From: Jimgerdemannia flammicorona
Lineage: Eukaryota; Mucoromycota; Endogonomycetes; Endogonales; Endogonaceae
Direction of reading: 5' to 3'
NCBI GenBank assembly: GCA_003990745.1
Contig: RBNI01003096.1
Location: forward strand, 1 to 16,684
Length of the DNA stretch: 16,684 bases
The notes under the pieces are model-generated. The model did not search any database. It was not told where the DNA came from and worked only from the letters and a program-made list of their open reading frames with translations. Positions 1 through 16,684 of the stretch are shown in pieces (the stretch's first letter is position 1; every line of letters starts with the position of its first letter). The position numbers were made by a program, and so were the translations under genes.

Positions 1-389
1 CCCTACCCCTTTCTGATGAAAGACCACTTTGTCTAACACCATCGCCACCCTCCCACTACTCTGCTCACAGATCTTTACCACCAGACTGTGATGTCAGCCC
101 CCCTGAGGACCCCAACCCACCCACTATCCAGTCAGCAGATCCCCCAACAGCTCCTCCCACCTTAACACCTTCTCTCGCAGCCCCAACTACTGCTCCTCCT
201 CAAAAACAAAAAGCCAATGACCTGCCATTCCCACCCATACTGCTAGTACCCACTCTACAGTGAGCTAACTATTACCTACCCCACCCACAAGCTGAGATCT
301 CAAGTCCTCCCAGCGACCCCCCTCCCCCACCAGCCTATGCCTCACACCTAGTCTATTCCCTATAGTAGCCCAAAATTCCCCCAAAACCT

Positions 390-465
390 CACACTCTCCC
401 AGCCAATGTTCTGACATCTGTACAAAGCCCCCAGCTTACCCAATATTGTAACACTCCTCACAGTC
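390..465 (-). pseudogene. C-terminal zinc-binding motif (zf-RVT-like) of LINE ORF2
   Basis: Reading on in the ORF2 frame past the thumb region (GGLRLVDFPKRLHCL, AWWLKRAME) gives HIGHLVDGGQFDCEEC, then EHWLGEC. This is C-x2-C followed by H-x4-C, the arrangement of the zinc-binding region found after the RT in many eukaryotic LINEs (zf-RVT). A TAA at 436-438 lies between the two halves. The motif supports the claim that the frame is genuine out to the left part of the window although no long open stretch remains there. The role in LINEs is probably nucleic-acid binding during target priming. Confidence 0.7.
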
Positions 466-1249
466 AAATTGTCCACCATCCACCAAATGCCCTATATGGA
501 AATTCAGCATAACATTCCTTCACAATATTCTCCACCATACCACCCAGAACTTGTGGGGAAGCCACCTCCATACCTCAGCACTCCAGGACCAGATACCAGC
601 CCAGTCCCACTCCTCACCGATCCCTGATGCCTGCCAGCCACTCAGCCAAAGGTCCTGGCCAGGCCCCTGCTGATACTCTACTCCTTTCCCAATATCGAAC
701 ATAGCAAGTGGAGCACCCCCCAGGAGCAATCTATCCCAACACCACATATTAGGCCCCCACACCTCCTCCCCCTCATTGCCTTGCCAGCGCAGGCCAATTC
801 GGTGTACTCTGTCAGCCACACCCTACCAAAAGCCCTTAAACCGCAGCCACCTAGTGCCATTCAGCCCCACCAAAGAGAGCAGATCCCCAGAGGACCCTTG
901 AGGGGATGTTCGCATCTCCCATACCTTCTTCAACAGAGGTACCCAACCACCACCCTGCAGTTCCATAGCTCTCTTCAACCACCAGGCTCACAAGCAGTGC
1001 AGCCTCTTAGGAAAGTCCACCAGTCTAAGACCCCCCCTTACTACTGGCCTTGCAAGAGTATCCCAACTGACCTGGGACCTCCTCCCTGCCCAGATCTAAT
1101 CCCTAGCCACCTTCATCAGCTTCTTCACCATCTATGCTGAGAAGTCGAGGTTATATGCCACATACCATAGCTTGGGGAACCAATATACATTCAGGATTGA
1201 CACCCGCCCAGCTAGAGAGATATGGCGGCCTCCCCACCCTTGAAGGACC

Positions 1250-2230
1250 TCCCCCCAAATGTTCACCCTGCTCTCCCACCACCCTCTTGGCAGGACAGAG
1301 CCATATATAGAGAGGAAGATGCCTAGATAATGCACCACCTCACTAGCAGGGACAATTGTTCCAATGACATCTCTGTCCACTAGTCCATTCCCTAGCACCA
1401 TTGTCTCACACTTATGCCAGTTGAGCTTCGCCCCTGAGTGGGCCTCATACCATTCCACAGTCTCCTGAAGTACCTCCATATCTGCTACAGACCCAAGTCC
1501 AACCACTATATCATCAGCAAAGGCCCCCACCTTCCACCCTATACTATATATAGATAGCCCTGCCACCTTCTGGTGAATCCTATCCATCAATGGCTCCAGC
1601 AAAAGGGCATAAAGAATAGGGGACAGAGGGTCCTCCTGAGGAACTCCTCTTTCCAAGGAAAATACCCTCCCATGGTGACCATTACATGTCAGAGCTGCCC
1701 TACTGCTCTCTAGCAGACCTAACATAGAGGCCTTAAATCTTGGGGGGACCTCAATATGGTCCAATACCCTACCCAGCCACACTCACCATACATGGTCGTA
1801 GGCCTTCTCCTGGTCCAAAAAGACCAAACTTCCATCCAAGCCACAAGCCCAGACCCCCTCAATAATGCCATGAACCCACGCAGTCCCATCTCTTATAAGT
1901 CTGCCCCCAACAAAGCCCCACTGCTTCTCCCCCAGCACCTGTTGGGCAACTTTCTGCAGTCTTACAACAATCACCTTAGTCACCATCTTCCTATCCATGT
2001 CCAGAAGCATGATCAGCCTCCAGTTCTTCCAGTCTTCCCTCCTCCCCTTGTCTTTGTACAATAAGGCCATCAGCCCAAGATCCTGCTCTCCAATCCACTC
2101 ACCTCTCTGAAGAATATGGTCACAGAGAGCAGCCATCTCACTCAACACTCCACAGACATTTACCATCTTCTTTCAGAAGTCCCACGGCAGTCCATCCTCC
2201 CCTGGTGCCATCCCAAGTTTAGTTGCTGCC
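1250..2230 (-). pseudogene. Reverse transcriptase domain of LINE ORF2
   Basis: The LINE RT motif blocks are present in order: KLGMAPGEDGLPWDF; LLYKDKGRREDWKNWRLI; ...QWGFVGGRLIRDGTAWV; LVFLDQEKAYDHVW; GVPQEDPLSPILYALLLEPL (family pattern GVRQGCPLSPLLF); the catalytic box FADD at 1521-1510; then GAKLNWHKCETMVLG and HYLGIFLS. The NWR-I-LL-D-K block and GAKLN block point to an L1/Tx1-like enzyme. Stops at 2173 and 1783 break the domain; the second falls in the AYDHV-W region where a Trp or similar codon is expected. The active-site Asp pair is intact. Confidence 0.93.
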
Positions 2231-2939
2231 AGGACACTTTGGATCTCCTCTCCCTGCACTGGTAAGATCAGGTCACCCAGTCTAGCTACTTGTGGAGGCC
2301 TCCACTCTTCAAGTGTGTTCACAATTTCTGCTTCATCAACACCCCCTTCTTCCTCACTCCACAAGCCCTGCCATCTCTCCTTCAACTTTCCTAAGATTTG
2401 TTGCATACTGTGTAGCATTTTCCCATCAGCATCCAGAACCCCATCCCACCAATGTCATACTCTCCTAGCTTTGAGAAGTCTTGATAAGTACCTAGAAGGC
2501 TGCTCACCCTCCTCAAGCCCCTGCCATCGTAGCCTTGCAGCCATGTCCCACATATAAGTCTCCTCCTCTTCCCTCAACACCTGTGGTAGTTCCACTATCT
2601 CCAATTTTGCCCTCTTGATCCTCCAATCCTCCACCCCAACAATAGTGAGCAAATCCACTCAATCCATTTGTAGCCTCCTCAGCCTGCTGGAAGCACACCT
2701 CATGTGTCTCCTCCTCTGCCTCCCGGCCTCTCTACCAGCCCCTCCCTAATAAACTCTCGCAGCCTCTTTCAATCTCAACCAGCGGACATCCACCAGCAAA
2801 CCCTCACACCTCCAATTAAAAACCTTTGCCTGAATGTCCTCCACCCACAATTCCCACAACCCCTTCTCAGCCAGCAGGAAGGAGTTAAGATGTCAATGTC
2901 TGGGTCCATCTCTACTCCCCCCAAACTGCCCATGCCCCA

Positions 2940-3610
2940 AAAGTCCCCAGTGATCAGACCATGGGCACCACTCCACTTCCAATGCCCTCCAAACATCTGA
3001 ATCCCAATACTCCACTGTCAGAATCCAGTCAATCCTCGTGCCCAAGCCATTCACCCAATGCGTATAGACCCTGGCATCCCCTCACCTAGTTCTACCCATA
3101 TCCCCCAAGAAGCTCAATGTCTTCACCTCCTCCCATGTGTCCAGACCTCCACTTCTACCCCCAGCACTCCTCCCTCCATTAGTCCTGTCCAGACACAGAT
3201 CCCTAACCATATTAAAGTCCCCACCAAGCACATCAACCCCTTCTTCCAAGAGAATACCCTCCTCTAGCAGCCTCCTAATCCATGCAGTCCTCTCACCCCT
3301 ATCCACAGGACAGTAGCAAGAGCCCACCTTCACTGATTCCCACCCTGGCTGATGCCAATCTCCCCAGACCAAGTAATCCCCCCAGCTCCTGATTCCCCCC
3401 AAGTCATCTCTACCCTTTCTCACCAAAATCACTACCTTTCCAAACCAAGCAGCAGTCCCACCCCATTCCCTAGTCCATTCTATACAATCATCCTCATCTC
3501 TACATCGAACATCCTGTAGTAAAAAGAGATCAGCCTCCAATTCCTTGAGTCAAGTAAAAATGTTCCTCTGCCACCCAGCGCCCCTTAACCCATTCACATT
3601 CAATGAGAAA
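2940..3610 (-). pseudogene. APE-type endonuclease domain of LINE ORF2
   Basis: Motifs appear in the order expected for the AP-endonuclease-like fold: SLNVNGLR near the start (Asn of motif I), LFLLQDVR (LQ-E/D motif), GGDFNM at about 3222-3207 (the Asp-Asn pair of the GDFN motif), RIDWIL at about 3036-3020, and SDHWG at about 2958-2944 (the catalytic Asp-His pair). This domain makes the first-strand nick that primes reverse transcription. In-frame stops at 3550-3552, 3082-3084 and 2893-2895 break it, so it cannot be made as one protein. The key acidic and His residues themselves are still present. Confidence 0.9.
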
Positions 3611-3661
3611 ATGTTAGTTGTACTGTTCATAAGGAATAATGTTATATCGTAGTCCTATCCT

Positions 3662-5047
3662 CTACAAGTCCACATTCCACTCCTCCTGTACCACATCCAA
3701 GTCATGTTCAGTAGCTAGTTCCTTCTCCCCTGCTTCCTGTGCCATCAATGCTCTCAGAAGTTCTACCATTGCCCCATCTTCATGCTCCTCAAATTCCTTA
3801 TGGTACTCTAGACAGGTCTCCTGCCAGAGCTGCAAACCATGATGCTCTGTCCAGCAGTAGGCCACTCGCTCACCAGCAACCACCCCCAGCTCTGCCTTCC
3901 TCACCTCATCCACCTCATACCCCTCCTCCTTCAGGAAAATACCCAGAATCTCCACCTTCAATGCCTCCACCATACCATCACCATGTAAAATCTGTGCCCA
4001 ATGCTCCTCAGACATTGCCCGCAGGTCCACTTCTCCCAAAGCATCTGCTGCAAGATTATCTATCACCTTGCGCATCCACAACAAGTTCCCCACCTCCTTT
4101 CCTCCTGGAGTCTCTGGCTGCCCAGCATCCAGTATCGTAGTATCAGTACTGACACTAGCAGCCTCATCCCACTCTTTCTCAGGAATATCCACCAGCTCGT
4201 CCTCCCCAACCGCCACCACCTGACCCCCTTGCCCCACATCAGGGACCCCAAAGCACACCTGCTGGGCCCCCTGCATCTGTGTATCCTCCGTTGTCCCTCT
4301 CTTCCCATCTGGGCCCCTCCTGATAAGTGGGGGGGGGGGTGGCATCCAACTCCGGCTCCCACACTTCGAAGGTACCATCAGCAAATGGGTCCTTGTCCAG
4401 CTTCCCCCCAGCCCTTGCCTCCTTCGCCTCTACCTCCTCTCCTCCTTTACTAGCCCAGACACTGGTCTATGCACCTCCAGACTCCTCAGTTCCCACTGAT
4501 GTTTTCTTCACCCCTCCTGTCATACTCGCCAACAACTCCCTCTGCCTCTTGCATCCCTGGGCTCACTCCCACTGCTTCTTATCTATGTGGACATGCTTTC
4601 TGCCCACAACCTCCAGATGTGTCGACTCCTCATACAGTCTCCAGGCCTTCACCCTCCTCTCCACAGCACCACTCAACTCCTCTAACACCTCCAACAAGTC
4701 CTCCTCCTCCTCTTCACTCCCTTTCACCCTTGACACCTTGCAGACAATGGCCCCCCACATCAGTACCAAGGGCCAGTCACTTGCCTTCCCCATGGCCTCC
4801 TTTTCTGCCAGCCGAATCCTTACATCAACATTGCCCATCCTGATTGTAGTCCCCTCCCACACCTGAAAGCTGATGTCCACCATGTCGCTAAACTCAATCA
4901 TCACCTCCTCCACCCTCTTTCTAGTCTCCTCCTTAGTCACCATGGGCACCTCCTTCACCAGAAGCTGCACCACCCTGGGGTTCCATTGTAAGCACCACAC
5001 CATGGGGATCACCACCTCCCCAATCATGACTCCAGTCTTCAGTGTCT
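3662..5047 (-). pseudogene. LINE ORF1, central and C-terminal part
   Basis: Continuation of ORF1, starting at the Glu-Thr-Leu-Lys codons next to the insertion. The segment at roughly 4960-4730 (EETRKRVEEVMIEF... then TIRMGNVDVRIRLAEKEA and LMWGAIVCKV) has the look of the conserved core of fungal LINE ORF1 proteins, probably an RNA-binding fold; this rests on remembered family pattern, not a search. An acidic, probably coiled segment follows (GSEEEEEDLLEVLEEL). In-frame stops are a TGA at 4563-4565 and a TAG at 4467-4469. At a run of 11 C (plus strand G, 4329-4339) the open frame changes by one base; from there a 240-codon acidic C-terminal region stays open to the TAG at 3662-3664. Whole ORF1, with the insertion removed, would be about 680 codons. 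No CCHC zinc knuckle was found. Confidence 0.8.
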
Positions 5048-5052
5048 CATCC
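5048..5052. repeat. Target site duplication, left copy (catcc)
   Basis: Five bases next to the TGTAA start of the left LTR. They match the five bases after the right LTR except for the last base (C here, T there). Five bp is the usual duplication for Ty3/Gypsy integrases. The one difference is a C/T transition, like the other damage in this window. Confidence 0.85.
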
Positions 5053-5070
5053 TGTAAGCACACAACCTCC

Positions 5071-5215
5071 AAGCCACAGAAATCACATGTCACCCTCTTA
5101 ACAAGCCACAGAAATCACACACAACCTCTGAACAAATCTGGAAATCACCTGTGCAATCATGAAGCTGAGTCAAACAGAAGTCACAGTGCACAAAGCTGAG
5201 TCAATACAAAGTCAC
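5071..5215 (+). promoter_or_regulatory. Short direct repeats with two TGAGTCA sites, start of left U3
   Basis: Two perfect copies of AAGCCACAGAAATCACA (5071-5087 and 5103-5119), followed by two imperfect copies of a longer unit containing AAGCTGAGTCAA and AAGTCACAG, 31 bp apart. TGAGTCA occurs at 5166-5172 and 5197-5203. This heptamer is the binding site of Gcn4/Cpc1/AP-1-type bZIP factors. In the right LTR the first is TAAGTCA (13754-13760) and the second is intact (13785-13791). They lie 60-100 bp upstream of a TATA-like box, a sensible enhancer position for the LTR reading frame. Confidence 0.5.
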
Positions 5216-5264
5216 AGAACACAAGGTTCACACAAACGGAATCTTACCAATCAAGAACAGATGC

Positions 5265-5271
5265 ATATATA
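5265..5271 (+). promoter_or_regulatory. Upstream TATA-like box, left LTR
   Basis: ATATATA within GCATATATACTGAGC, 70 bp before the ATG at 5341. It is conserved at the same position in the right LTR (13853-13859). Proposed as the promoter of the LTR reading frame; AT-rich strings of this length can occur by chance, so the call rests on its position after the paired TGAGTCA sites. Confidence 0.45.
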
Positions 5272-5340
5272 CTGAGCCCTGAGATGCATCGAAACAGAGA
5301 ACCAAAACAAATAACAACCACAACTTCTAAACACACAAAT

Positions 5341-6437
5341 ATGACCACCGAGATCTACAACCGCATTCGCGCTGACATTTGGAATGCCATTGTCAACCAA
5401 GCCACACCCCCTCTACCCTCATGAATATCCATAGCCTCGCACCCCTCTACTTTATGGAAGCCCGATGGAACACCCTGAATATGCTTAACGAGGCCCACTA
5501 GATCAGACAAATCTCAAGCTACTACCAGATCGGCCGCCTCCTAGAAGACATGGTCGAACACTACCACAATACAGACATTACCCAGATGTCTCAATGCCAG
5601 AAGCTCATCGCCCGCAAACATCGAGAACTCTTCTATGAGTACAGTACCTTTATTCCCTGCCTCTGAGTTACTACCAGCGAAATGGTTACTACCCTGTCCT
5701 ATGGCCAAATCGATGACATGATACAAGAACTCAACTACAAGTATCTCAAGTACGTTCAGACTACTGACAGAACCTTCCCGCACTCCAATGACCACATCCT
5801 GCAAATGCCCCAAGTTGGATACGCTATAAAGGACATCTATGATATAATCAACTTTGACGAAGACGAAGCAGAAGACAATGATCCCTCTGATGCTGACATG
5901 ACCTCAAGCCAAGGATCTCTACCAACCCTGATCACACTGCCAACCTTGCTGATGAACTTACAATAGTTCATAACCACATACGAGACTTATTGGGACAATG
6001 ATCACTAGCATGAATACCAACCTGCATTTACCCCTGATTACTTCAACTACAATGAAGAGACCAGAGAACACAACCTGTACCTTCAGACAACCCTCGAGAT
6101 CAAACCAACAACTCCACCACCTGAGTACGAGTGACATGAACCACAGCCGCCAGCTTACTATAACCCTGTGACTCATAGTACTGTAATCTATAGAAGGTAC
6201 ACAGACAATGAATCCGATGAAAGTGAAAACAATGCACCACTTCTTTGCCCACCAACACCTTATCCAGCATATGAGACAGATGATGCTATCCTGTGGGATG
6301 GAGATGAAGTTCCAATGTATTATTACCTTAGCCAACAAGGAGAAGTAATCCGCAAACCTCTCTTCCTAGATGACTACTTCATCAGAGATGATGTCATCGA
6401 TGGTGATATCATCAAAGACTATCCAGACAGTGCCTAA
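5341..6437 (+). pseudogene. LTR-embedded reading frame, left copy (unknown protein)
   Basis: Ancestral frame of about 365 codons from ATG 5341 (MTTEIYNRIRADIWN...) to TAA 6435-6437, lying wholly in U3. I do not recognise it. The first ~105 residues look helical; an acidic stretch (NFDEDEAEDNDPSD) lies near residue 170; the C-terminal third is rich in Tyr, Pro and Asp (PPTPYPAYETDD, YYYLSQQGEV, DDYFIRDD). No signal peptide, membrane segment or known motif is evident. This copy has a one-base deletion in a C run (about 5413-5427) and stops at 5499, 5664, 5964, 6006 and 6132. At four of these the right LTR has CGG, CAG, TGG or CGA; only the TGA at 5664 is shared. An ATG at 5682 could start a second frame after the shared stop. 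A TATA-like box lies about 75 bp upstream of ATG 5341. Confidence 0.65.
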
Positions 6438-6486
6438 ACCTATAAATAGCTTAGCAGTCATAGTATAGTTAGATTAGCTTTGTATG

Positions 6487-6570
6487 ACATGACTGTGAAC
6501 TGACTCAGCAGTCAGATGATCTCTTGACATGTCAGATCATACTTATACTACATGACTGTATTCTGACTCA
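6487..6570 (+). promoter_or_regulatory. Paired TGACTCA enhancer-like repeat, left LTR
   Basis: A ~25-bp unit, ACATGACTGT-nnn-CTGACTCAGCA, occurs twice, 63 bp apart (from 6487 and from 6550). TGACTCA, the bZIP (Gcn4/Cpc1/AP-1) site, is at 6501-6507 and 6564-6570. Between them lies an inverted repeat (ATGATCT 6516-6522 and AGATCAT 6534-6540) enclosing the palindrome TGACATGTCA (6525-6534). The block ends about 57 bp before the TATA box at 6627. Both TGACTCA copies are intact in the right LTR at 15090-15096 and 15153-15159. Confidence 0.55.
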
Positions 6571-6626
6571 GCAAAGTACTTAGTGCTACATCCATATCTA
6601 GCCTAGTCCAGATAGCCCCTCACTAG

Positions 6627-6634
6627 TATAAATA
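6627..6634 (+). promoter_or_regulatory. Main TATA box (TATAAATA), left LTR
   Basis: TATAAATA followed by a C-rich stretch, identical in the right LTR (15216-15223). About 120 bp later comes AATAAA. A promoter followed closely by a poly(A) signal is the standard U3-R arrangement, so the genomic RNA should start near 6655-6665. This puts about 1.6 kb of U3 upstream. Confidence 0.7.
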
Positions 6635-6751
6635 CCCCCTCCCCCAGACCTCAGAATCTCAGACCTGAACAATCCGAACACAACTCCTGAGCACTTCCCC
6701 ACAATATTCCTTTACACAAATACTCCTAGTATAGCAATATCATGAATAGCA

Positions 6752-6757
6752 AATAAA
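6752..6757 (+). terminator. AATAAA poly(A) signal, left LTR
   Basis: AATAAA within AGCAAATAAACC, about 120 bp after the main TATA box, conserved in the right LTR. It marks the R region; the copy in the left LTR would normally be bypassed. Confidence 0.5.
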
Positions 6758-7118
6758 CCTATTTAATAACCCACAAACCACTCTTAAGTAAATCCGCTCC
6801 CCGTTAGGTCCCACTCCTAACCCTGTCACGAAATTTCCTAATTGGGTATTGTCTGCAGTGATATGCCAATTCAACTAAGCTGGTCTTAGTTTCTCGAACT
6901 TCCTGAAATACGGAAAATCCTAAACATCCAGAACTAGTCCAAAAAAGGACTTTGGTTGAGATGTCAACCAGATCTTGAAATCAATAAGCGTAGAGGACAT
7001 ACTCCATACGAAATTGATCTTGACCATAAGAAAACGGTCTTCCAGAATATCCTGAACATCTAGAAAACCCTTCCAGAACTATGTAACAGTTACCCTAAAA
7101 AGCAACCCTCTTACAACT

Positions 7119-7130
7119 TGGTAGCAGTGG
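7119..7130 (+). other. Primer binding site, initiator-tRNA-Met-like
   Basis: TGGTAGCAGTGG begins three bases after the left LTR. The first nine bases (TGGTAGCAG) equal the complement of the 3' end of many eukaryotic initiator tRNA-Met genes. The position right after the LTR is the one expected for the minus-strand primer. Confirmation needs the host tRNA set. Confidence 0.75.
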
Positions 7131-7132
7131 TT

Positions 7133-8077
7133 TACAATTCAATTCTGCTTCAAGACGCTTCCTCACCCTGCTACAAACCCTTCTGTGAATTTCTACAAGT
7201 TGGTATAAAGCCCAACCTCTGACCTGGAATTTATTGTGAACCATCTGACAATCTGGAGAGAATTGAACCTGACGTATAAGGACAATTTGACCTCCACACT
7301 TGCAACAAGTGGGATAAACTTCATTCAAAGAAAGAAGTACTCCGATTAAATCAGCAAATAGGCGAATACCTATTCACCGAACTCCTTGCACTATACCCAG
7401 TAAGTCAAGATGAAGAAGGTCTTATAGAAGCCTTCTTTACTCTTCTCAATAAGAGTTTTGTCAGCTCCACAAACCTGAGTGACCTAGGACAACTAGCAGC
7501 AGTCTTTCTAGCCTTAGTTCCTCATGAAGCCCAAGCCTCTGTAGCCAAGTGGCTCAACTCTACTGACTTCCACTGAACCAGAACCAAGACTGCATTATAC
7601 TACCAATTCCAGAACAGTAAGGCCTGCCATATTCTTAAGGAAGAAGCAAGAGAAACCCTCCATCAACTACCTGATCCCAAACCTGAAGCAGGCCCTGCTA
7701 CAGCCCTACCTGAATCCGAAACTAATACCGAACCAGAACTTGACTTTGAATTAAGTCCATCTGAAATCAGATATATAACTGATTCTGTCTACTTTGATGC
7801 TGAGCAAACCCAAGTACACGGAGACCAAATCCAAGAGGAGGAGGAGTATCTCAGTGAATTCGATTCCAGATACACCACTGAAGGAGATGTACCTCCATCA
7901 GGACAGAATACACCTACACAGCAACAGACAGCCATCTATCAAGCCCTTACTCTAGACCCACAACTATTACTCCAGCAACTTACACAGACTCAAAGAACCC
8001 CATCACACTCTGCACCAGTACCTCAAGTAGTACCAGGAACACCACTACCAGTAGTTCAACTGCCTCTAGTAAACAAC
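7133..8077 (+). pseudogene. N-terminal extension of Gag, unrecognised
   Basis: About 315 codons in the gag-pol frame before the first in-frame ATG. Stops are few (7220 TGA, 7277 TAA, 7574 TGA). Readable parts include a helical stretch with Leu and acidic residues (LTELLALYP-like, EGLIEAFFTLLNKSF, GQLAAVFLALVPHEA), then an acidic, Pro/Gln-rich linker (EPELDFELSPSE, IQEEEEYLSEF, QQQTAIYQ, and a Pro/Val run before the ATG). I do not recognise a known domain. It may be an extended matrix-like part of Gag or a separate accessory protein read without an obvious start codon. There is no membrane segment. Confidence 0.55.
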
Positions 8078-8960
8078 ATGGCAAACCAACAGATTCTAGA
8101 CCTTACAGCCCAGGTAGCCATAATGGCAGCAACCATTACTGCCTTAGCTGAACAGACCCGACCTATAAAAAATCTGAGTCTACCTACCTTCAATGGTACT
8201 GCACAAGAAGTTGAAAGCTTCATTAGTATAGTTGACACCAACTTCAAAGCCAATCAATGGACCAATGAATGAGTCGCTAACCATGTTCTGACAAACAATT
8301 AAGACTACACTCTGGAACAACACTTTGATACCACTACAGCCTATGTCCATCAAGTTGTTATATTCTTCCAAGAACCTGCTGAAGAATGGTAGTGAACCCT
8401 TCCCGAAAAACCCCTCACATGGGACACCTGATCTGCAGTAGTTGCTCAGAATATAGCAAATAATGCCCCAGGATATGTAGACCATCCTGCAGCCCCTGGA
8501 CTTAAACAACTCATGATTGCTCAATATCACAGTGAAACTATGATCGCTGAATCTCGAGTAAAACTCTGCAACCTCAAATTTGATGTACATGGCAAGGAGG
8601 AATTCGAAACCTTCTGTACAAAACTTGAGTCACTCCTGAACACTGTTGGCCTAGGATATATTGCCAATGATAAAGCATGAAATAGTACAAGAGCAGATCA
8701 TTTATTCGATGCCCTGCCTGAATGGCTTACTAGAAAAATCCGAGAACAAGGATGCCCAGTTGGTTGTGACCACCAACAATGGTGCCTTGCAAGGATCAAG
8801 ACTATGATCAAGCAGATCCTAACAGCTGGACCTATTCTGCCTCGAAGACAATTCAACAACAAGGAAAAGACTTGGACCAAGAAAGAAGAACCCAAGTATG
8901 AAGCCTCCTGAGCTCCCTCATCATCCACTCCATCGACACCCAGAAATCATGAACCCACCC
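8078..8960 (+). pseudogene. Gag capsid-like region
   Basis: Starts at a real ATG (MANQQILDLTAQVA, a likely short coiled coil) and then gives LSLPTFNGTAQEVESFISIVD, the pattern of the start of Ty3/Gypsy Gag (P-F-G-...-FL/I). Later blocks fit Gag as well: KFDVHGKEEFETFCTKLESLL and DALPEWLTRKI. The region ends in a basic linker (PRRQFNNKEKTWTKK). Gag forms the particle that packages the RNA. In-frame stops are at 8270, 8300, 8390, 8393, 8429, 8678 and 8909, the densest cluster in the element. Confidence 0.8.
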
Positions 8961-9019
8961 AGCCGAGTACCTTCAAGAAACTCACTAAAGGCAAAAGGAA
9001 TGAACTTAGAAGAAGCGGA

Positions 9020-9070
9020 GCATACTTCTATTGCCAAAAGACAGGACACATGGCCAGTACCTACCCTAAC
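9020..9070 (+). pseudogene. Nucleocapsid CCHC zinc knuckle, both outer Cys lost
   Basis: Reads AYFYCQKTGHMASTYPN. The family pattern is C-x2-C-x4-H-x4-C; here the first and last Cys positions are Tyr (TAC at 9023-9025 and 9062-9064), each one G-to-A step from TGC. The inner Cys (9032-9034) and His (9047-9049) remain. The knuckle binds packaged RNA in working elements; this copy could not hold zinc normally. It is in frame with both Gag and the dUTPase that follows. Confidence 0.88.
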
Positions 9071-9142
9071 CGAAAACTCTGAACAGCAACACGAGCAACT
9101 GTTATCACTCTGCACCACCTCAACAATCTGATAACCAGAATA

Positions 9143-9551
9143 CTAGACTTTGTCAAGTTAAGACAAACTGCTAAGACCCCAAGCAAAGGAAGTCAAAAAG
9201 CAGCAGGATATGATCTGTATACAGCCGAAGAAGCTACAGTCTCTAACTGAGAAGTCAAACAAGTCTATACAGGAATCAGCATCCAAATCCCTGAAGGACA
9301 TGTTGGAAGAATATGCTGTCGCAGTAGCCTAGCATTGAAAGGACTCTCAATAGAAGGAGGAGTCATTGACGAAGATTACACAGATGAAATTATTGTCCTC
9401 ATCTGAAACCACAGTTGGACACCCTTCAAGATCCCTATAGGCTTCTGTATCGCTCAGATCCTATTCGAAAAAATCGAGTCAAACCTGACAGTCAAGGAAG
9501 TCCCTGAACTACTGCCCACCATCCGAGGATCCAAAGGATTTGGTTCATCAA
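9143..9551 (+). pseudogene. dUTPase domain (dUTP diphosphatase) inside the polyprotein
   Basis: All five motifs of trimeric dUTPases occur in order and spacing: motif 1 AAGYDLYT (9203 on), motif 2 GRICCRSSLALKG (9305 on), motif 3 GVIDEDYTDEI (9359 on, catalytic Asp at 9368-9370, Tyr at 9377-9379), motif 4 GFCIAQILF (about 9440), motif 5 RGSKGFGSS (about 9524-9550). Length is about 136 residues, normal for the family. The enzyme hydrolyses dUTP to dUMP and pyrophosphate and so limits uracil in new DNA; in some retroviruses it helps copying in cells with high dUTP. Two TGA stops (9248, 9404) inactivate it. Position between nucleocapsid and protease is as in betaretroviruses. dUTPase-bearing fungal Metaviridae have, to my knowledge, been reported from Phanerochaete. 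Confidence 0.94.
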
Positions 9552-9569
9552 ACAAGGCCCCAGTCCAAC

Positions 9570-9796
9570 CTACTGTGAACAAAGAAGAACAATTCTATAA
9601 GAAAATCGAAGATGGATATGTACCAAGTGGCTGATGTCCCCATGGCATTGGAATGTACTCTTCCCAAATGATTGATAATTGCTTCTCTTGTGTCAACAAA
9701 CTGGCTCAAAGAAGAACCAATAGAAGGAAAGCTCCTACAAATGAAATCACCACCATTGGATCAGACAAACTGCTTACACTTAAAGCTTTTATCAAC
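9570..9796 (+). pseudogene. Linker between dUTPase and protease with a Cys/His cluster
   Basis: In-frame segment with the pattern C-x-H-x12-C-x2-C: Cys 9635-9637, His 9641-9643, Cys 9680-9682, Cys 9689-9691, followed by a basic patch (QRRTNRRK). This could be a second zinc-binding nucleic-acid module, but I know no named family with this spacing. A TGA lies just before the first Cys (9632) and another before the protease (9797). One decayed copy cannot show whether the cluster is conserved. Confidence 0.45.
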
Positions 9797-9799
9797 TGA

Positions 9800-10150
9800 G
9801 CACCTGTCAAGATCATGATAGACAGTAGTGTCTCAGACAACTTCATCAATGAAGAAACAGCCAACAGACTCAAGGTCTTCACCTCTCCAGTGCAACAAAC
9901 TCAAGCAGTTGCTACAGCTGATGGAACCTCACATATCATTAGCAAGGAAGTCTGCAATCTACCCTTCCGAATTGGTGACTACCAAGTACATGTTACCCTT
10001 CAAATTGTACCACTCCCTGATAACAAAATAATCCTTAGAACTCCATGGTTGAAACAAGAGAACCCCATGATCGATTGGGTAAACCATTCTCTGACCATCA
10101 AGAAAGGATGCCACAACTTCAAACTGCAAGGTGAAAAGGACTCACTCAAC
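9800..10150 (+). pseudogene. Aspartic protease domain of Pol
   Basis: Retropepsin-like pattern: VKIMIDSSVSDNFIN with the catalytic Asp at 9821-9823, a flap-like segment after it, then KIILRTPWLKQENPMIDW, which matches the I-LG-PWL-NP-IDW block of Ty3/Gypsy proteases. The active-site triad is DSS instead of the usual DSG/DTG, and ILGTPWL has become ILRTPWL; both are single G-to-A steps from Gly codons. The protease cuts the polyprotein into its working parts. The open stretch runs on to the TGA at 10370. Confidence 0.88.
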
Positions 10151-10369
10151 TCTAGTGACCCTGGACCAAAGATCACCCACATCAACAAGCTACAACTCAA
10201 GAGATTAGCCAAGAAATGCCCTCTCTTTGCTATCTCCATCCATCCATCCAAAGGAGAACCTGAGAACTCTGAAGAAGACTTTTCCAAAGTTGATAGCCAT
10301 GTCAGACCACTACTCCAGAAATTTCGAGACATATTTCCGAAGAAACTCCTGAAAGGCCTACCTCCCAAA

Positions 10370-11330
10370 TGAGCAGTAGACCATGCCATCAAGACTATTC
10401 CAGATGCCAAGCCTGCCTTTAAGTCAATCTACCACATGTCTCTGAGAGAAATCGATGTACTCAAAAAAGAAATTGACAAACTCCTGGAACAAGGATTCAT
10501 CAGACCCAGTTTATCACCCTATGGTACACCAGTCCTCTTTGTTGTCAAGAAAGGAGAAGACCTGTGAATGTGCATTGATTACCATGACCTCAATGAACAG
10601 ACTATTAAGAACTATTGCCCACTACCCAGAATCGATGAAATATTCGATAGGCTTACCAACCCACAATTCATGAGCTCCTTTGACCTGCAAAATGGTTACT
10701 GGCAAATTGCCATGAAAGAAGAAGACATCTATAAGACAGCCTTCTGAACCCGCTATGGACATTTTGAATTCCTGGTTATGCCCATTGGCTTAACTAATGC
10801 TCCTGCAACCTTCTAGACATTGATGAATACCATTCTGCATCCATACCTGGACAAATTCATTATTGTCTATATTGATGACATTCTAGTCTTCAGCAAAACC
10901 CTAGAGGAACATCTTGAACACCTGGAGCTAGTACTACTGAAACTCTGAGAAAACTGACTCTTTGCAAAACTCAGCAAGTGAGAATTCCTTCTGAAAGAAA
11001 TTCAGTTCCTTGGATACATAGTTACACCAAATGGAATCAAAGTAGACCCCAGCAAAATCTCCACAATCAAAGACTGGCCCAGACCCAAGAAGCTGAAAGA
11101 CCTCCAGTCATTCCTAGGATTAGCAAACTATTATAGATGATTTGTTGCCAACTTCGCTAAAATCGCCACTGCCTTTACCCAAATGACCAAGTACAGTAAG
11201 AAAGAAGAACAACCCTGGACTATGAAACAAGAGAAAGACTTCAACAATCTTGTAAATTGGGGACCTGAACAAGATACTGCCTTCCAAGCACTGAAGGATG
11301 CTTTGATAACCACTCCAGTACTTCAAGTGG
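10370..11330 (+). pseudogene. Reverse transcriptase domain of Pol
   Basis: Clear Ty3/Gypsy RT: AVDHAIKTIPDAKP, GFIRPSLSPYGTPVLFVVKK, MCIDYHDLNEQTIKN, PLPRIDEIFDRL, SSFDLQNGYWQIAM, TRYGHFEFLVMPIGLTNAPATF, the catalytic box YIDD at 10868-10879, and FLGYIVTPNGIKVDPSKI, then the connection FLGLANYYR. Stops at 10370, 10565, 10745, 10814, 10946, 10955, 10979 and 11138 fall mostly at expected Arg or Gln positions (for example F-Gln-LM-N at 10814, CAG to TAG). The two active-site Asp residues are intact. Confidence 0.96.
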
Positions 11331-11700
11331 CAAATTCTGCCCTACTATATGAAGTTACCACTGATGCCTCTGATCTAGCTCTTGGAGCAGTACTCATGTA
11401 AGAAGGACACCCTGTGGCCTATCACTCCTGTAAGTTCAGTGATGCTGAAATCAACTATGCAACTCACGAGAAGGAAATGTTAGCCATTGTAGACACCCTG
11501 ATCAAATGGCAACCATACCTAGAAGGAGCACACTTCACCGTATTGACTGACCACAAGTCATTAGTCAATATCAAGACCCAGACTACCCTTTCTCGAAAGC
11601 AAGCCAGATGGATGAAAGTCCTCACTAATTTTGACTATGAAATCCAGTACCGCCCTGGCAAAGAAAACATTGTTGCTGATGCAATCTCTAGACCACCCAT
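11330..11700 (+). pseudogene. RNase H domain of Pol
   Basis: Catalytic pattern TTDASDLALGAVL (Asp at 11363-11365), NYATHEKEMLAIV (Glu) and TVLTDHKSL (Asp), followed by RWMKVLTNFDYEIQYRPGKENIVADAISR, the usual end of Ty3/Gypsy RNase H. It degrades the RNA strand of the hybrid during copying. One in-frame stop (TAA 11399-11401) breaks it; otherwise this is among the best preserved parts of the element. Confidence 0.94.
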
Positions 11701-11879
11701 TGAAGAAGTTATCCAAACTCTCACCCTGGTTACAAACTCCATCATGGAACAAATTATTACAGTATGTGCTGATGATAAGGAAGCTCAAGCACTCTGAGAA
11801 ATCCTGAACAGTGATGATGCTGAAAAGCATACCTGGTATAACCAATACCAACTTAGGGACAATACTATCTACTACAAGG

Positions 11880-12960
11880 ACAGATTGTATGTTCCAAACA
11901 ACCGAGACCTCCGAAAGACTATCCTATTCAAATGTCATGATGCCCCTACAGCTGGTCACTTAGGATTTGATAAATGCTATGAAGTCATCTCTCGAAACTT
12001 CTATTGGCCCCGAATGGCAGATCAACTCAAGACCTACATCACTTCCTGTGATGCCTGCCAACAGAACAAGTCCTCAACACTAGCAAAACCTGGCCTACTC
12101 CACCCTATTCCAGTACCATCCACAAATTGGGAACAAGTCTCTATAGACTTCATTGTACAACTACTCTAATCCAAGAATGGAAAAGATGCAATTGTTGTCT
12201 TTGTGGACTATCTCAGCAAACAAGCTCACTTTGTACCAACCACCATCACTGCAACAGCACCAGATATAGCCACACTCTTATTTGACAACATCTTCCACTA
12301 TCATGGTCTCCCTAAGATTATTGTTAGTGACTGAGACCCGAAATTCACCAGCCATTTTTGGAAAGCCCTCCATGTGCACCTTGGAACAAAACTTGCACTA
12401 TCCACAGCCTTTCACCTCGAAACTAATGGCCAAACTGAAAGAATGAACCGAACTCTGGAATAAATGCTAAGGAACTATGTTTCCTACAGACAAGATGATT
12501 GGCACAAACACCTCACTGCAGTTGAGTTTGCCTATAACAACAGCAAGCAAGCCTCTCTTGGAATGACCCCATTCTTCGCCAATACTGGACAAAACCCAAA
12601 CACCCCTCTGACACTCATCCGAACCATTGAAGAACCCTCCACAGTCGAAGCTGTTGAAGAATTCTTACTCCGAATGTGTAATCTAAGCCAGATCGTAATT
12701 GAGAATTTATCACGAGCTCAAGAACAACAGTCACAGTATGTTAACCAACATTACTGAGAAGAAACCTTCAATATTGGAGAAAAGGTCCTATTAGACATCC
12801 AAGGATACCGAGTTGACAACCTCAAGCACAGACCATTTACAAAGCTGAACAGCAAGTTCATTGGACCATTTGAAGTCATTTCACAAGTCTCCCCAACCTT
12901 CTACAAATTGGCGCTACCAGATACCATTAAGATTCACCCAGTCTTCAATGTCTAATGTCT
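11880..12960 (+). pseudogene. Integrase domain of Pol
   Basis: The N-terminal zinc site is HHCC: His 11936-11938 and 11957-11959, Cys 12047-12049 and 12056-12058. The catalytic core is a textbook D,D-35-E: Asp 12146-12148 (SIDF), Asp 12329-12331 (IIVSD), Glu 12437-12439 (NGQTERMN), with 60 and 35 residues between. The C-terminal part has the GPF/Y module (FIGPFEVISQV, YKLALPDTIKIHPVFNV). Stops are at 12167, 12332, 12461, 12755 and 12953. Integrase inserts the DNA copy; the 5-bp duplication fits it. Confidence 0.95.
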
Positions 12961-13045
12961 CAAATGATACAATGACAATGATGATGAACTATTCCTGAAC
13001 CGAACTACAAAACCACCTGCACCTGTCATTATCAATGACCAGGAA

Positions 13046-13200
13046 GAATATGAAGTTGAACAAATCCTCAACAAACATAGCCACAAGAACCACCCTGAGT
13101 ACCTCATCAAATAGAAAGGTTATCCGATCCATGATGCAACATGGGAACCCAAGACCAATCTCCAGAATGCTACCAACTTAGTTCAGAAATATGATTCCTT
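13046..13200 (+). pseudogene. Chromodomain at the end of integrase
   Basis: Reads EYEVEQILNKH..., then PEYLIK-stop-KGYPIHDATWEPKTNL, the chromodomain pattern. In working chromodomains an aromatic cage (Tyr, Trp, Tyr/Trp) holds methylated histone H3; here the Trp before KGY is TAG (13112-13114), one G-to-A step from TGG. The Tyr at 13049 and Trp at 13142 remain. In chromoviruses this domain steers insertion to heterochromatin, which fits insertion of this element into an older repeat. The frame ends at TGA 13208-13210. Confidence 0.92.
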
Positions 13201-13210
13201 GAACAACTGA

Positions 13211-13640
13211 ACACTGAATACTCCTGCACCTATCAGTACACAATATATATTATCCTCTTGAACATTATAATTATCACGAACCTAATCAAGAACTCAGCAA
13301 GACAGAACAAAAGAATACCGACCTTCTGGAAAAATAGCAAAACTGAAAGCAAGCCTATTCTCCCTGTACCACTGGTGGGAAACAAGGCATAGACATTTAA
13401 GAAGATTCCTTAGAGGAAATTCTCCAGCAGTGAATGACATCAGAATCACTTCCAGCACACGGCATTGAACACATGACCCTGTAACATGTAAATCCAATAC
13501 GTTAGGCGACTGTACTACGAGCATGCCACTTTCTGAAAAAATGGACTTTACTGGACTTTTGACCTCCCAAACAGTGTAATAACACTAGAACAAAATTAGA
13601 AGGCCCCGACGAGGACATCGAAAGCTAAGAAGGGGAGAGT
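13211..13640 (+). other. Untranslated stretch between pol and the right LTR
   Basis: About 430 bp with no frame longer than a few dozen codons that I can support. It carries scattered stops in the pol frame soon after 13210, some AT-rich DNA, and ends in the purine tract. The short GAAGGCCCCGACGAGGACAT just before the tract is noticeably more GC/CpG-rich than its surroundings, a CpG-bearing island that escaped decay; I see no clear function. Confidence 0.6.
13627..13639 (+). other. Polypurine tract
   Basis: AAGAAGGGGAGAG, thirteen purines, separated by one T from the TGTAAG start of the right LTR. This is the plus-strand primer position in LTR retrotransposons and independently fixes the LTR boundary. 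Confidence 0.85.
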
Positions 13641-13852
13641 TGTAAGCGTATAACCTCCAAGCCACAGAAATCACACATCACCCTCTTAACAAGCTACAGA
13701 AATCACATGCAACCTCTGAACAAATCTGGAAATCACCTGTACAATCATGAAGCTAAGTCAAACAGAAGTCACAGTGTACAAAGCTGAGTCAATACGAAGT
13801 CACAGAACACAAGGTTCACACAAATGGAATCTTACCAATCAAGAACAGATGC

Positions 13853-13859
13853 ATATATA
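13853..13859 (+). promoter_or_regulatory. Upstream TATA-like box, right LTR
   Basis: ATATATA, 70 bp before the ATG at 13929, matching the left LTR copy. In this LTR it would allow the frame to be read independently of the full-length RNA. Confidence 0.45.
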
Positions 13860-13928
13860 CTGAGCTCTGAGATATGTCGAAACAGAGAACCAAAACAAAT
13901 AACAACCACAACTTCCAAACATACAAAC

Positions 13929-15026
13929 ATGACCACCGAGATCTACAACCGCATCTGTGCTGACATTTGGAATGCTATTGTCAACCGAGCCACACCCTCT
14001 CTGCCCCTCATGAATATCCATAGCCTCGCACCCCTCTACTTCGTGGAAGCCCGATAGAACACTCTGACCATGCTTAATGAGGCCCACCGGATCAGACAAA
14101 TCTCAAGCTACTACCAGATCAGCTGCCTTCTAGAAGACATGGTCAAACACCACCATGATACAGACATTACTCAGATGTCTCAACACTAGAAGCTTATCGC
14201 CCACAAATACCAAGAACTCTTCTACGAGTATAGCACCTTTATTCCCCACCTCTGAGTTACTACTAGCAAAATAGTTGCTACCCTGTCCTATGGCCAAATC
14301 AACGACATGATATAAGAACTCAACCACAAGTATCTTGAGTATGTTCAGACTACCAACAGAACCTTCCTGCACCCTGATGACCATATCCTGCAAATGCCCC
14401 AAGTTGGATATGCCATGAAGGATATCTATGATATAATTAACTTTGATGAAGATGAAGCAGAAGACAATGATCCCTCTGACACTGATATGACCTCAAGCCA
14501 AGGATCTCTACCAACTCTGATCATACTGCCAACCTTGCCGATGAACTTACAACAGTTCATAACCACATACAAGACTTATTGAGACAATGATCACTGGCAT
14601 GAATACCAACCTACATTTACCTCCGATTATTTCAACTACAACGAAGAGACCAGAGAACACAACCTGTACCTTCAGACAACTCTCGAAATCGAACCAACAA
14701 CTCCATCACCTGAGTACGAGCGACATGAACCACAGCCATCAGCTTACTACAACCCTATGACTCATAGTGCTGTAACCTATAGAAGGTATACAGACAATGA
14801 ATCCAATGAAAGCAAAAATGATGTACCACTTCTTCACCCACCAACACCTTATCCAGCATATGAGACAGATGATGCTATCCTGTAGGATGGAGATGAAGTT
14901 CCAATGTATTATTACCTCAGCCAACAAGGAGAAGTAATCTGCAAACCTCTCTTCCTAGATGACTACTTCATCAGAGATGATATCATCAATGGTGATGTCA
15001 TCGAAGACTATCCAGACAGTGCCTAA
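13929..15026 (+). pseudogene. LTR-embedded reading frame, right copy (unknown protein)
   Basis: Same frame as at 5341-6437; here 1,098 bp, exactly 366 codons including the TAA at 15024-15026, with no indel. Stops at 14055, 14187, 14253, 14313, 14580 and 14883. At 14055, 14187, 14313, 14580 and 14883 the left LTR has TGG, CAG, CAA, TGG and TGG, so these are G-to-A or C-to-T damage. The TGA at 14253 is shared and either predates insertion or arose at the same site in both copies. The frame lies about 720 bp after the end of gag-pol, so on genomic RNA it would be a 3'-most frame, the position of accessory genes in some retroviruses (for example sag in the U3 of mouse mammary tumour virus). That is a comparison of position only; no similarity is claimed. 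Confidence 0.65.
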
Positions 15027-15215
15027 ACCTATAAATAGCTTAGCAGTCATAGTATAGTTAGATTAGCTTTGTACAACATGACTGTGAACTGACTCAGCAG
15101 TCAGATGATCTCTTGACATGTCAGATCACACTTATACTACATGACTGCATTCTGACTCAGCAAAGCACTTAGTGCTACATCCATATCTAGCCTAGTCCAG
15201 ATAGCCCCTCACTAG

Positions 15216-15223
15216 TATAAATA
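15216..15223 (+). promoter_or_regulatory. TATA box (TATAAATA), right LTR
   Basis: Copy of the left LTR promoter. In the 3' LTR it could drive read-out transcription into the flanking LINE, antisense to ORF1. Confidence 0.6.
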
Positions 15224-15340
15224 CCCCCTCCCCCAGACCTCAGAATCTCAGACCTAAACAATCTGAACACAACTCCTGAGCACTTCCTCACAATATCCCT
15301 TCACATAAATACTTCTAGTATAGCAATATCATGAATAGCA

Positions 15341-15346
15341 AATAAA
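15341..15346 (+). terminator. AATAAA poly(A) signal, right LTR
   Basis: Same signal in the 3' LTR, where the genomic RNA and any transcript of the LTR reading frame would end. Confidence 0.55.
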
Positions 15347-15704
15347 CCTATTTAATAACCCACAAACTACTCTTAAGTAAATCTGCTCCCCATTAGGTCC
15401 CACTCCTAACCCCATTACGAAATTTCCTAATTGGGTATTGTCTGCAGCGATACGCCAATTCAACTAAGCTGGTCTTAGTTTCTCAAACTTCCTGAAATAC
15501 GGAAAATCCTGAACATCCAGAACTAGTCCGAAAAAGGACTTTGGTTGAGACATCAACCCGATCTTGAAATCAATAAGCATAGAGGATATACTCCATACAA
15601 AATTGATCTTGACCATAAGAAAACGGTCTTTCAGAATATCCAGAACTTCCAGAAAACCCTTCCAGAACTACGTAATGGTTACTCTAAAAAGCAACCCTCT
15701 TACA

Positions 15705-15709
15705 CATCT
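15705..15709. repeat. Target site duplication, right copy (catct)
   Basis: Five bases after the TTACA end of the right LTR. Counting the duplication once restores the LINE ORF1 frame across the gap; the C/T difference would fall at the third position of a Leu codon on the minus strand and would be silent. Confidence 0.85.
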
Positions 15710-16353
15710 AGTGGGCCGACTTCCTCAAAGCCCACCTCAACCCCCTCCAGACCCTTCAAAAACTTCACCGAAGCCGCCCCAGCCACCTGCTTCGACACAA
15801 GCCCCAGAACCATCCTTGTCGTCATCACCAAGCCCCAGAAGTACAAGGTCACCACAAACTCCAAGATCAACTTCTTGAGTAATGGTGCCACTGCCAGTCC
15901 CATCATACCATCTGCCAGGTCCCCCTTCTGCATCAGGATCCTCTGCCCCACCTGGCCATCAGCTGTCACATCTCTTTTTTTTTTCTGATTAGCTATCATG
16001 CTACCATCAGCAGTCTTGCCACTACCCCCAGCAGTCCCTCTACTTCCCCCACCTCTCACTAGTGAAGGCCCAGCTCCCCCAGCATCCTCAGCCTTCTGCT
16101 TCCCCTTCCCTCCTGTCTGATCTCTGTAGGCTCTTATCGGCCAGCCCCCAGTCCTCAGTGTATCTGCAAAGCTCCTCCCCTGCCGCTCTCCAGCCCCTCC
16201 ACCAGTGCCACCTCCACTACCTGAGCTGCCCAGTCCACTCGAGGCACCAAAAGACCCCATTCCCAGCCCATGCCCCCTTCCAACATGCTGCCAGTTGAAG
16301 GCCCTAGGTCCACCTGACCTAGTATGTGTGTCAGCTTGCTTGCTGCTTGACAT
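15705..16353 (-). pseudogene. LINE ORF1, N-terminal part, interrupted by the LTR element
   Basis: This is the N-terminal part (about 216 codons) of the LINE nucleic-acid-binding protein, which in characterised LINEs coats the element RNA. I chose the ATG at 16353 (MSSSKQADTHTR...) because the only upstream extension begins at a non-ATG codon. The first ~130 residues are low complexity and rich in Gly and Ser, probably disordered, with a basic patch (NQKKKRDV) encoded over a 10-T run (15975-15984 on the plus strand). No stop codon occurs in this part. Reading is broken at 15705 by the LTR element. A run of apparent residues past that point comes from LTR DNA and is not part of the protein. The continuation lies at 5047-3662. 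Confidence 0.8.
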
Positions 16354-16684
16354 CCTCTTAGTATCTTTCTTCAATAAACGACTTGAAAGTGTATTGTGAA
16401 AGTTTGTATAATGCAAATTGTAGTGGAGAAAGATGATGAGTAATTCTACCTCTCCTTAGTTACTCTATATTAGTCTATATATTTAATAAATAAATTTGCT
16501 ATCTAACTACTACTCTCTCTATCTAGCTTTGAGTTAGAAGTCACTATCTGACTTATAATACTAGTATCTTAGGTGAGTACTGCTATCATACTCAGCCTTA
16601 CCCCAAAGGACTACTAGATATAATCTCAGTATCTTAAGTACTTCTGTAATACTATATCTGGTCTACTTTTTTTTTTTTTTTTAT
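16354..16684. other. AT-rich non-coding stretch upstream of LINE ORF1, ending in a T run
   Basis: No supportable gene. It would include the LINE 5' UTR next to 16353. Two imperfect direct copies of a motif around CAGTATCTTAAGTACT lie at about 16562-16592 and 16627-16653. The last 18 bases hold a run of 16 T (16667-16682), which on the minus strand is a poly(A), as found at the 3' end of a LINE or SINE lying further right in the same orientation. Confidence 0.5.

Follow-up and report, generated by a model that had tools for sequence, protein, structure and literature searches.

Whether a retrotransposon can carry a gene of its own inside its long terminal repeats (LTRs) is the question raised by the 16,684-nucleotide stretch of Jimgerdemannia flammicorona DNA analyzed here (the window, which is the whole of contig C3096 in an assembly of 134.8 Mb and 7754 contigs), which contains a single LTR element. 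To our knowledge, genes inside LTRs are rare. The sag gene of the mouse mammary tumour virus lies in U3, for example, and is thus present twice in each provirus. A first-pass annotation of the window, made from the sequence alone, had proposed that this element is a chromovirus with an accessory gene in U3, which is duplicated with every insertion. This proposal is supported by open copies elsewhere in the genome, by purifying selection on the reading frame, by the TATA-like box and ATG at its upstream end, and by a relative (P0001) recovered in protein searches. That the U3 frame is a real gene is close to settled from the sequence, and the overall explanation that fits best, with high probability, is that of a true accessory gene with promoter-like elements of its own, which encodes an acidic protein of 365 residues.

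The U3 frame in the two repeats and its decay

Both LTRs carry the same frame, as the annotation had stated, and it appears to be confined to U3, ahead of the main TATA box, as would a U3-encoded gene of the sag kind. The right copy (13929..15026, on the plus strand, like all the features of the element given below) is exactly 366 codons long, including the TAA, and has no indel, with stops at codons 43, 87, 109, 129, 218, and 319. Its register is the one that the other family copies keep, almost without indels, and the stops of the left copy (5341..6437) are numbered in this register. The left frame is broken by the loss of one base near 5415, which shifts the frame, and by stops at codons 54, 109, 209, 223, and 265. 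The annotation had counted nine stops found in one copy only, with TGG, CAG, CAA, CGA, or CGG in the partner copy, and a single common TGA, and these counts proved accurate. Five of the nine are on the right (43, 87, 129, 218, and 319) and four on the left (54, 209, 223, and 265), while the TGA of codon 109 is present in both LTRs and is CGA in 45 of 59 other copies. At all ten of these places, most of the 59 copies have a sense codon.

These in-frame stops are best read as decay that followed insertion, given that 116 of the 118 stops found in 61 copies (the 59 loci and both window LTRs) are deamination-type changes, C to T or G to A, relative to the most frequent sense codon at that position, and that the differences between the LTRs are almost all transitions, with the highest per-site rate at CpG and the next highest at CpA. 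Transversions make up 4 or 5 of the 161 differences between the window LTRs, depending on the alignment, and the median number of transversions to the 59 other copies is 15 from the right LTR and 18 from the left. An estimate of age from LTR divergence was dropped, because the differences are nearly all transitions.

Open copies, constraint, and relatives

The first-look searches of the genome returned, as unscored candidates, 3219 places for the DNA of the frame, 2780 for its C-terminus, 3265 for R-U5, 1295 for gag, and 916 for RNase H, of which 40 were scored per search, and 150 in the case of the frame C-terminus. The best 150 scored of these 2780 candidates are 84–100% identical to the query, that is, they are family copies. 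Nineteen of them lie within open frames of at least 381 residues, and 17 of the 19 have no stop in the match. The 59 loci fetched comprise these 17 and a further 42 chosen because their DNA resembles the left frame or because they have a long open frame, so that the 61-copy set is partly selected for openness, and is not blind. All 366 codons can be read without an internal stop at 17 natural loci of this set, and TAA ends the frame at 16 of the 17. A lack of open frames in the other family members, which the annotation had set against its proposal, was not the result, although one subfamily is frame-less.

For the analysis of constraint, variants were binned by the number of copies that carry them, with shared variants coming mostly from replicating elements, and single-copy variants arising mostly after insertion. 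In 87 copies, the transversions shared by at least two copies comprise 22 nonsynonymous (N) and 28 synonymous (S) changes, whereas neutrality would give 84.6% N (omega-like ratio 0.14, p 5e-11), and the single-copy transversions in the frame are N54:S20 (0.49). The transitions found in at least 10 copies are N84:S101, with a ratio of 0.42 relative to all transitions and 0.50 relative to those of the CpA/CpG type, compared with N77:S52 in single copies (0.75 and 0.89, respectively; Fisher p 0.016). For shared transversions, the three frames of the 3' LTR control have ratios of 1.27, 1.24, and 1.27, the two shifted frames of the open reading frame (ORF) 0.81 and 3.53, its antisense frames 1.65, 0.34, and 2.95, and the three frames of a 288-base stretch of the 5' LTR 0.28, 0.87, and 1.23.

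The RNase H region of the element, in 21 copies, served as the positive control. Its transitions seen at least three times are N12:S18 (0.35), and its only two shared transversions are both synonymous. The accessory frame, in 50 random subsamples of 21 copies, has a median of 0.39 (range 0.30–0.46), and the shared-transition constraint on this frame thus resembles that of RNase H (0.39 vs. 0.35). The distribution of indels in the 61 copies, a set biased by the finding of most copies with the frame as query, is 3 distinct indels in the 1098-base frame versus 92 in the other 966 bases of the LTR. For the 27 copies found through R-U5 alone, with no selection for intact frames, the counts are 6 in the frame and 33 elsewhere in the LTR. 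A dN/dS near 1, with frameshifts spread evenly, was the pattern that the annotation had set against a gene; the ratio for shared variants is instead far below 1, and the indels avoid the frame.

The protein searches returned two relatives, P0001 and P0002. P0001 comes from an ENA contig of 998 bases and is 247 residues long. Its alignment with residues 115–365 of the accessory protein covers 251 positions, of which 65% are identical and 82% positive, has two gaps of two residues, both in frame, and reaches the same C-terminal end. Simulation without constraint to about this level of identity gave 74–75% positives, with 81.7% as the highest of 1200 runs, and 3.5–5.1 stops on average, with stop-free runs at 0.25–2%. 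P0001 appears to stand outside the family of this genome, as its identity to the 150 scored own-genome copies is 65–70%. P0002, a fragment of 128 residues on a JGI contig of 1180 bases, is 88% identical and probably belongs to the same family; it was rejected as independent evidence, as its end precedes codon 129, and that codon is a stop in 6 of the 59 other copies. An open frame that arose by chance, or from base composition alone, would find some favor in the C-rich, G-poor strand and in two antisense pieces that are also long, but is scarcely credible in the face of the codon-level constraint in 87 copies with controls inside the LTR, and of a similarity to P0001 that exceeds the unconstrained simulation.

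A number of points weigh against the reading of the frame as a functional gene. The p-values for constraint are optimistic, as the copies are uncorrected for kinship. One antisense frame of the ORF reaches 0.34, which is taken as caused by third positions that lie opposite those of the sense frame, and one of the three frames in the 288-base stretch of the 5' LTR is also low (0.28, p 0.003, 24 variants). No domain match above the cut-off was found in Pfam, NCBIfam, PHROGs, or PDB sequences, in agreement with the annotation, which had recognized none. An ORF-blind set, picked by similarity to R-U5 (37 of the 39 other matches were fetched), comprises 28 copies with the full span of the frame (L066 being a duplicate of L030), eight with another type of LTR, and one cut by the end of a contig; only one of the 28 full frames is open, and four are frameshifted, so most copies are now dead. 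The existence of a frame-less subfamily could also fit a dispensable protein, although, for the autonomous lineage, the constraint argues against this.

Signals, protein, and possible function

A putative promoter precedes the gene. It comprises a CCAAT motif at 13835..13839 (5247–5251 on the left), where the commonest base is found in 98–100% of the copies, and a conserved TATA-like box, ATATATAC, at 13853..13860 (left 5265–5272), which ends 68 bases before the ATG, and is intact in at least 83 of 86 copies (the sum of the listed forms, with one of the 86 unlisted). The ATG is kept in 85 of 87 copies, and the TAA in 86 of 88. The main TATA box, TATAAATA, at 15216..15223 (left 6627–6634), which is intact in 85 of 86 copies and is taken as the promoter of the gag-pol RNA, is separate from ATATATAC, and lies 190 bases past the accessory stop codon. 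It is followed by AATAAA at 15341..15346 (left 6752–6757), a candidate polyadenylation signal. A scan for promoters of the bacterial type recovered 8 sites versus 5.6 expected, and is uninformative for this element. As for the region upstream of the ATG, the 5' LTR frame with the low ratio (window 5053–5340; 0.28, 24 variants) is in phase with the accessory gene, and open frames of 412 residues, which extend 46–47 codons upstream of the ATG, were listed.

Because of its location in U3, the gene is copied into both LTRs with each insertion, and is left behind in solo LTRs. The gene may be transcribed from its own TATA-like box, and the transcript of the copy in the 3' LTR could end at the downstream polyadenylation signal, in which case splicing would be unneeded. 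The protein probably serves the family in trans.

In six sequences, the 365-residue protein is acidic (pI 4.05–4.35), with 0–3 Cys, a highest 19-residue mean hydropathy of 1.32, and no membrane-type segment by this measure. Inspection by eye points to a helix-like N-terminal half, an acidic linker near residues 165–195, and then a part rich in Tyr, Pro, and Asp, which are the acidic center and Tyr/Pro/Asp-rich end that the annotation had described. A HepT match in Pfam (E 0.028) and two NCBIfam matches (E 0.16 and 0.22) fell below the cut-offs and were rejected, and a search of IMG/VR found nothing.

Of the three possibilities that the annotation had been unable to tell apart, a regulator, a captured host gene, and an env-like replacement, the third is now unlikely. 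An env-like or superantigen-like surface protein would share its location with sag, yet the low hydropathy and the few Cys of the six sequences make it very improbable. There is no hydrophobic segment of the kind expected of a membrane glycoprotein such as Sag, and an env-like gene would have a transmembrane segment and be a separate gene downstream of pol, whereas this one is located in U3.

Many activation domains are acidic and rich in aromatic residues and proline, and the C-terminal half of the accessory protein likewise combines acidity with many Tyr, Trp, Phe, and Pro residues. On this analogy, the best single guess, albeit a tentative one, is that the protein may be a regulator of the expression or silencing of the element itself; Pfam recovered no known DNA-binding or activation domain in it, and the acidic aromatic tail is no more than suggestive. 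A rather unlikely rival is a protein that, instead of activating transcription, counters silencing by the host through methylation or repeat-linked mutation. The family is abundant, with thousands of unscored first-look LTR candidates, and most of the differences among its LTRs in the host genome are C-to-T type changes at CpG and CpA, but abundance has many possible causes, and there is no family match above the cut-off in the libraries used. This same lack of a relative in the family libraries would suit a gene captured from the host, a passenger with a cellular function rather than one that serves the element. Such an origin is doubtful, as the best 150 scored own-genome matches, all 84–100% identical family copies, include no host homologue, and a protein whose constraint resembles that of RNase H would seem to serve the element.

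The element, its gene-less subfamily, and known systems

The eight ORF-blind copies of the other type have an LTR of approximately 1485 bases, where complete, in which U3 has been replaced; it shares the first 25 bases (by eye) and the last ~735 with the gene-bearing LTR, while the middle is unrelated. In the six gene-less LTRs examined, there is no conserved frame (5–14 stops per frame are common to all six), and ATATATA was not found, while the main TATA box is kept in all six; ACCAATC is present in gene-less LTRs at another place. Longer stretches were fetched for six loci (L098–L103). In L098, L099, L101, and L103, the internal part runs from gag through protease, and then lacks reverse transcriptase (RT), RNase H, and integrase, whereas L102 has the gene-less type of LTR only, and L100 is of the gene-bearing type. 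The gag, dUTPase, and protease regions of the former four can be compared with window positions 7116–10341, 12990–13092, and 13578–13640.

A relic of about the last 18–20 accessory codons persists within the part common to both types of LTR, from which we infer that the subfamily lost the gene, rather than not yet having gained it. The new finding here is a non-autonomous subfamily that appears to have lost both the U3 gene and the RT–RNase H–integrase portion, but kept the main TATA box, gag, and protease. This joint loss of the accessory gene and pol fits a trans-acting product. The retention of gag and protease would also suit a Gag-related or assembly factor, which joins the particle or recruits a ubiquitin ligase through PPxY-type motifs, and PPEY and PPAY, or near forms, are visible by eye in the tail of family copies. 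This is unlikely, however, as P0001 has neither PPxY motif, and a Gag origin was rejected at an hhalign probability of 0.2% in a profile comparison with one gag piece.

The element itself is bounded by a 5' LTR at 5053..7115 (2063 bp, TG...CA, with a junction with the internal region that is also found in other copies) and a 3' LTR at 13641..15704 (2064 bp), which are 92.15% identical. The target-site duplications are CATCC (5048..5052) and CATCT (15705..15709), which differ by one C/T mismatch; TG...CA repeats and a short duplication of this kind are typical of chromoviruses. Short imperfect repeats near the start of the LTRs (5053–5230 and 13641–13815) form a zone of frequent indels. The gag region, assigned from position and by eye, is in pieces at 7577..9082, and includes a zinc-knuckle-like match, below the cut-off, at 8912–9082. 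Upstream of the recognizable gag start, there is a long frame (7280–7576) with no domain above the cut-off, perhaps an N-terminal extension of gag. A dUTPase domain (9170..9550) follows in three open pieces, between gag and protease and N-terminal to the latter, as found in the gag-pol of dUTPase-bearing LTR retroelements (PF00692, E 9e-12 and 2.2e-6 on two pieces, the third, at 0.0045, being below the cut-off).

Open pieces with aspartyl protease (9800..10372; PF08284, E 3e-7), RNase H (11402..11797; PF17917, E 2.8e-25), and the zinc-binding part of the integrase (11798..12169; PF17921, E 3.7e-22) succeed one another in the chromovirus order, with the RT core outside the scan, and the rve piece of the integrase scoring below the Pfam cut-off. 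A chromodomain (13049..13195) lies at the C-terminal end of the integrase, interrupted by an in-frame stop, with PF00385 on either side (E 7.4e-7 on one piece, and 0.011, below the cut-off, on the other). Together with the protease, RNase H, and integrase zinc-finger matches, it confirms the assignment of the element to the chromoviruses, and an element of this type would point to a fungal host. The element is nested in a minus-strand non-LTR element (window 1–5047 and 15710–16684), which has RT and endonuclease-like pieces. In four of 13 compared loci (L003, L008, L100, and L101), LTRs lie near or inside a relative of this non-LTR element, at other positions, and L008 resembles a solo LTR inside such a relative.

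The likeness to sag lies in a protein encoded in U3 with two copies per insertion; Sag, however, is a membrane glycoprotein encoded by a vertebrate retrovirus, whereas the protein described here is acidic, with no membrane-type segment, and belongs to a fungal-type chromovirus. Among fungal LTR elements, dUTPase domains are known in PosPlaTy3 of Postia placenta and in one element of Tuber melanosporum (PMC2864245), the latter named Tmt1 in a reference cited in PMC5408684. PosPlaTy3-3 is likewise a Ty3/gypsy element with the dUTPase at the N-terminus of Pol, although the available passages of PMC2864245 mention no gene inside the LTR for PosPlaTy3 or the Tuber element. The Retrosat2, RIRE3, and RIRE8 elements of grasses also have long LTRs and an extra, fast-evolving gene with no assigned function, ORF0, which the available description presents as a frame that precedes the gag-pol frame, and does not place inside the LTR (PMC3485330).

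The crapaud element of Podospora anserina is also a fungal chromodomain element, subject to repeat-induced point mutation, and its variants are distinguished chiefly by the part of U3 that precedes the TATA box, but this variable U3 is shorter than 200 bp, and the passages at hand mention gag and pol frames alone (PMC10787394). The LTR elements of bdelloid rotifers share the extra genes and the dUTPase, but have no chromodomain, and their ORF3, additional to gag and pol, is not described within the LTR in the accessible part of the source (PMC5408684). The passages of open-licence literature searched, including those of PMC4165359 and PMC10974842, contain no description of a fungal element with a gene inside its LTR.

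The U3 gene is under constraint like that on RNase H, and the size of the family permits population-level tests, with the gene-less subfamily providing a natural comparison. This makes it possible to test for retrotransposon regulators encoded in U3, for a contribution of solo LTRs after the loss of the element, and for the dependence of a satellite on its partner. A speculative, and still somewhat doubtful, possibility is that U3 has become a complete unit for the expression of a trans-acting regulator, on whose supply the gene-less satellite subfamily, lacking RT through integrase, would live. If so, every insertion, solo LTRs included, could remain a working regulatory gene.
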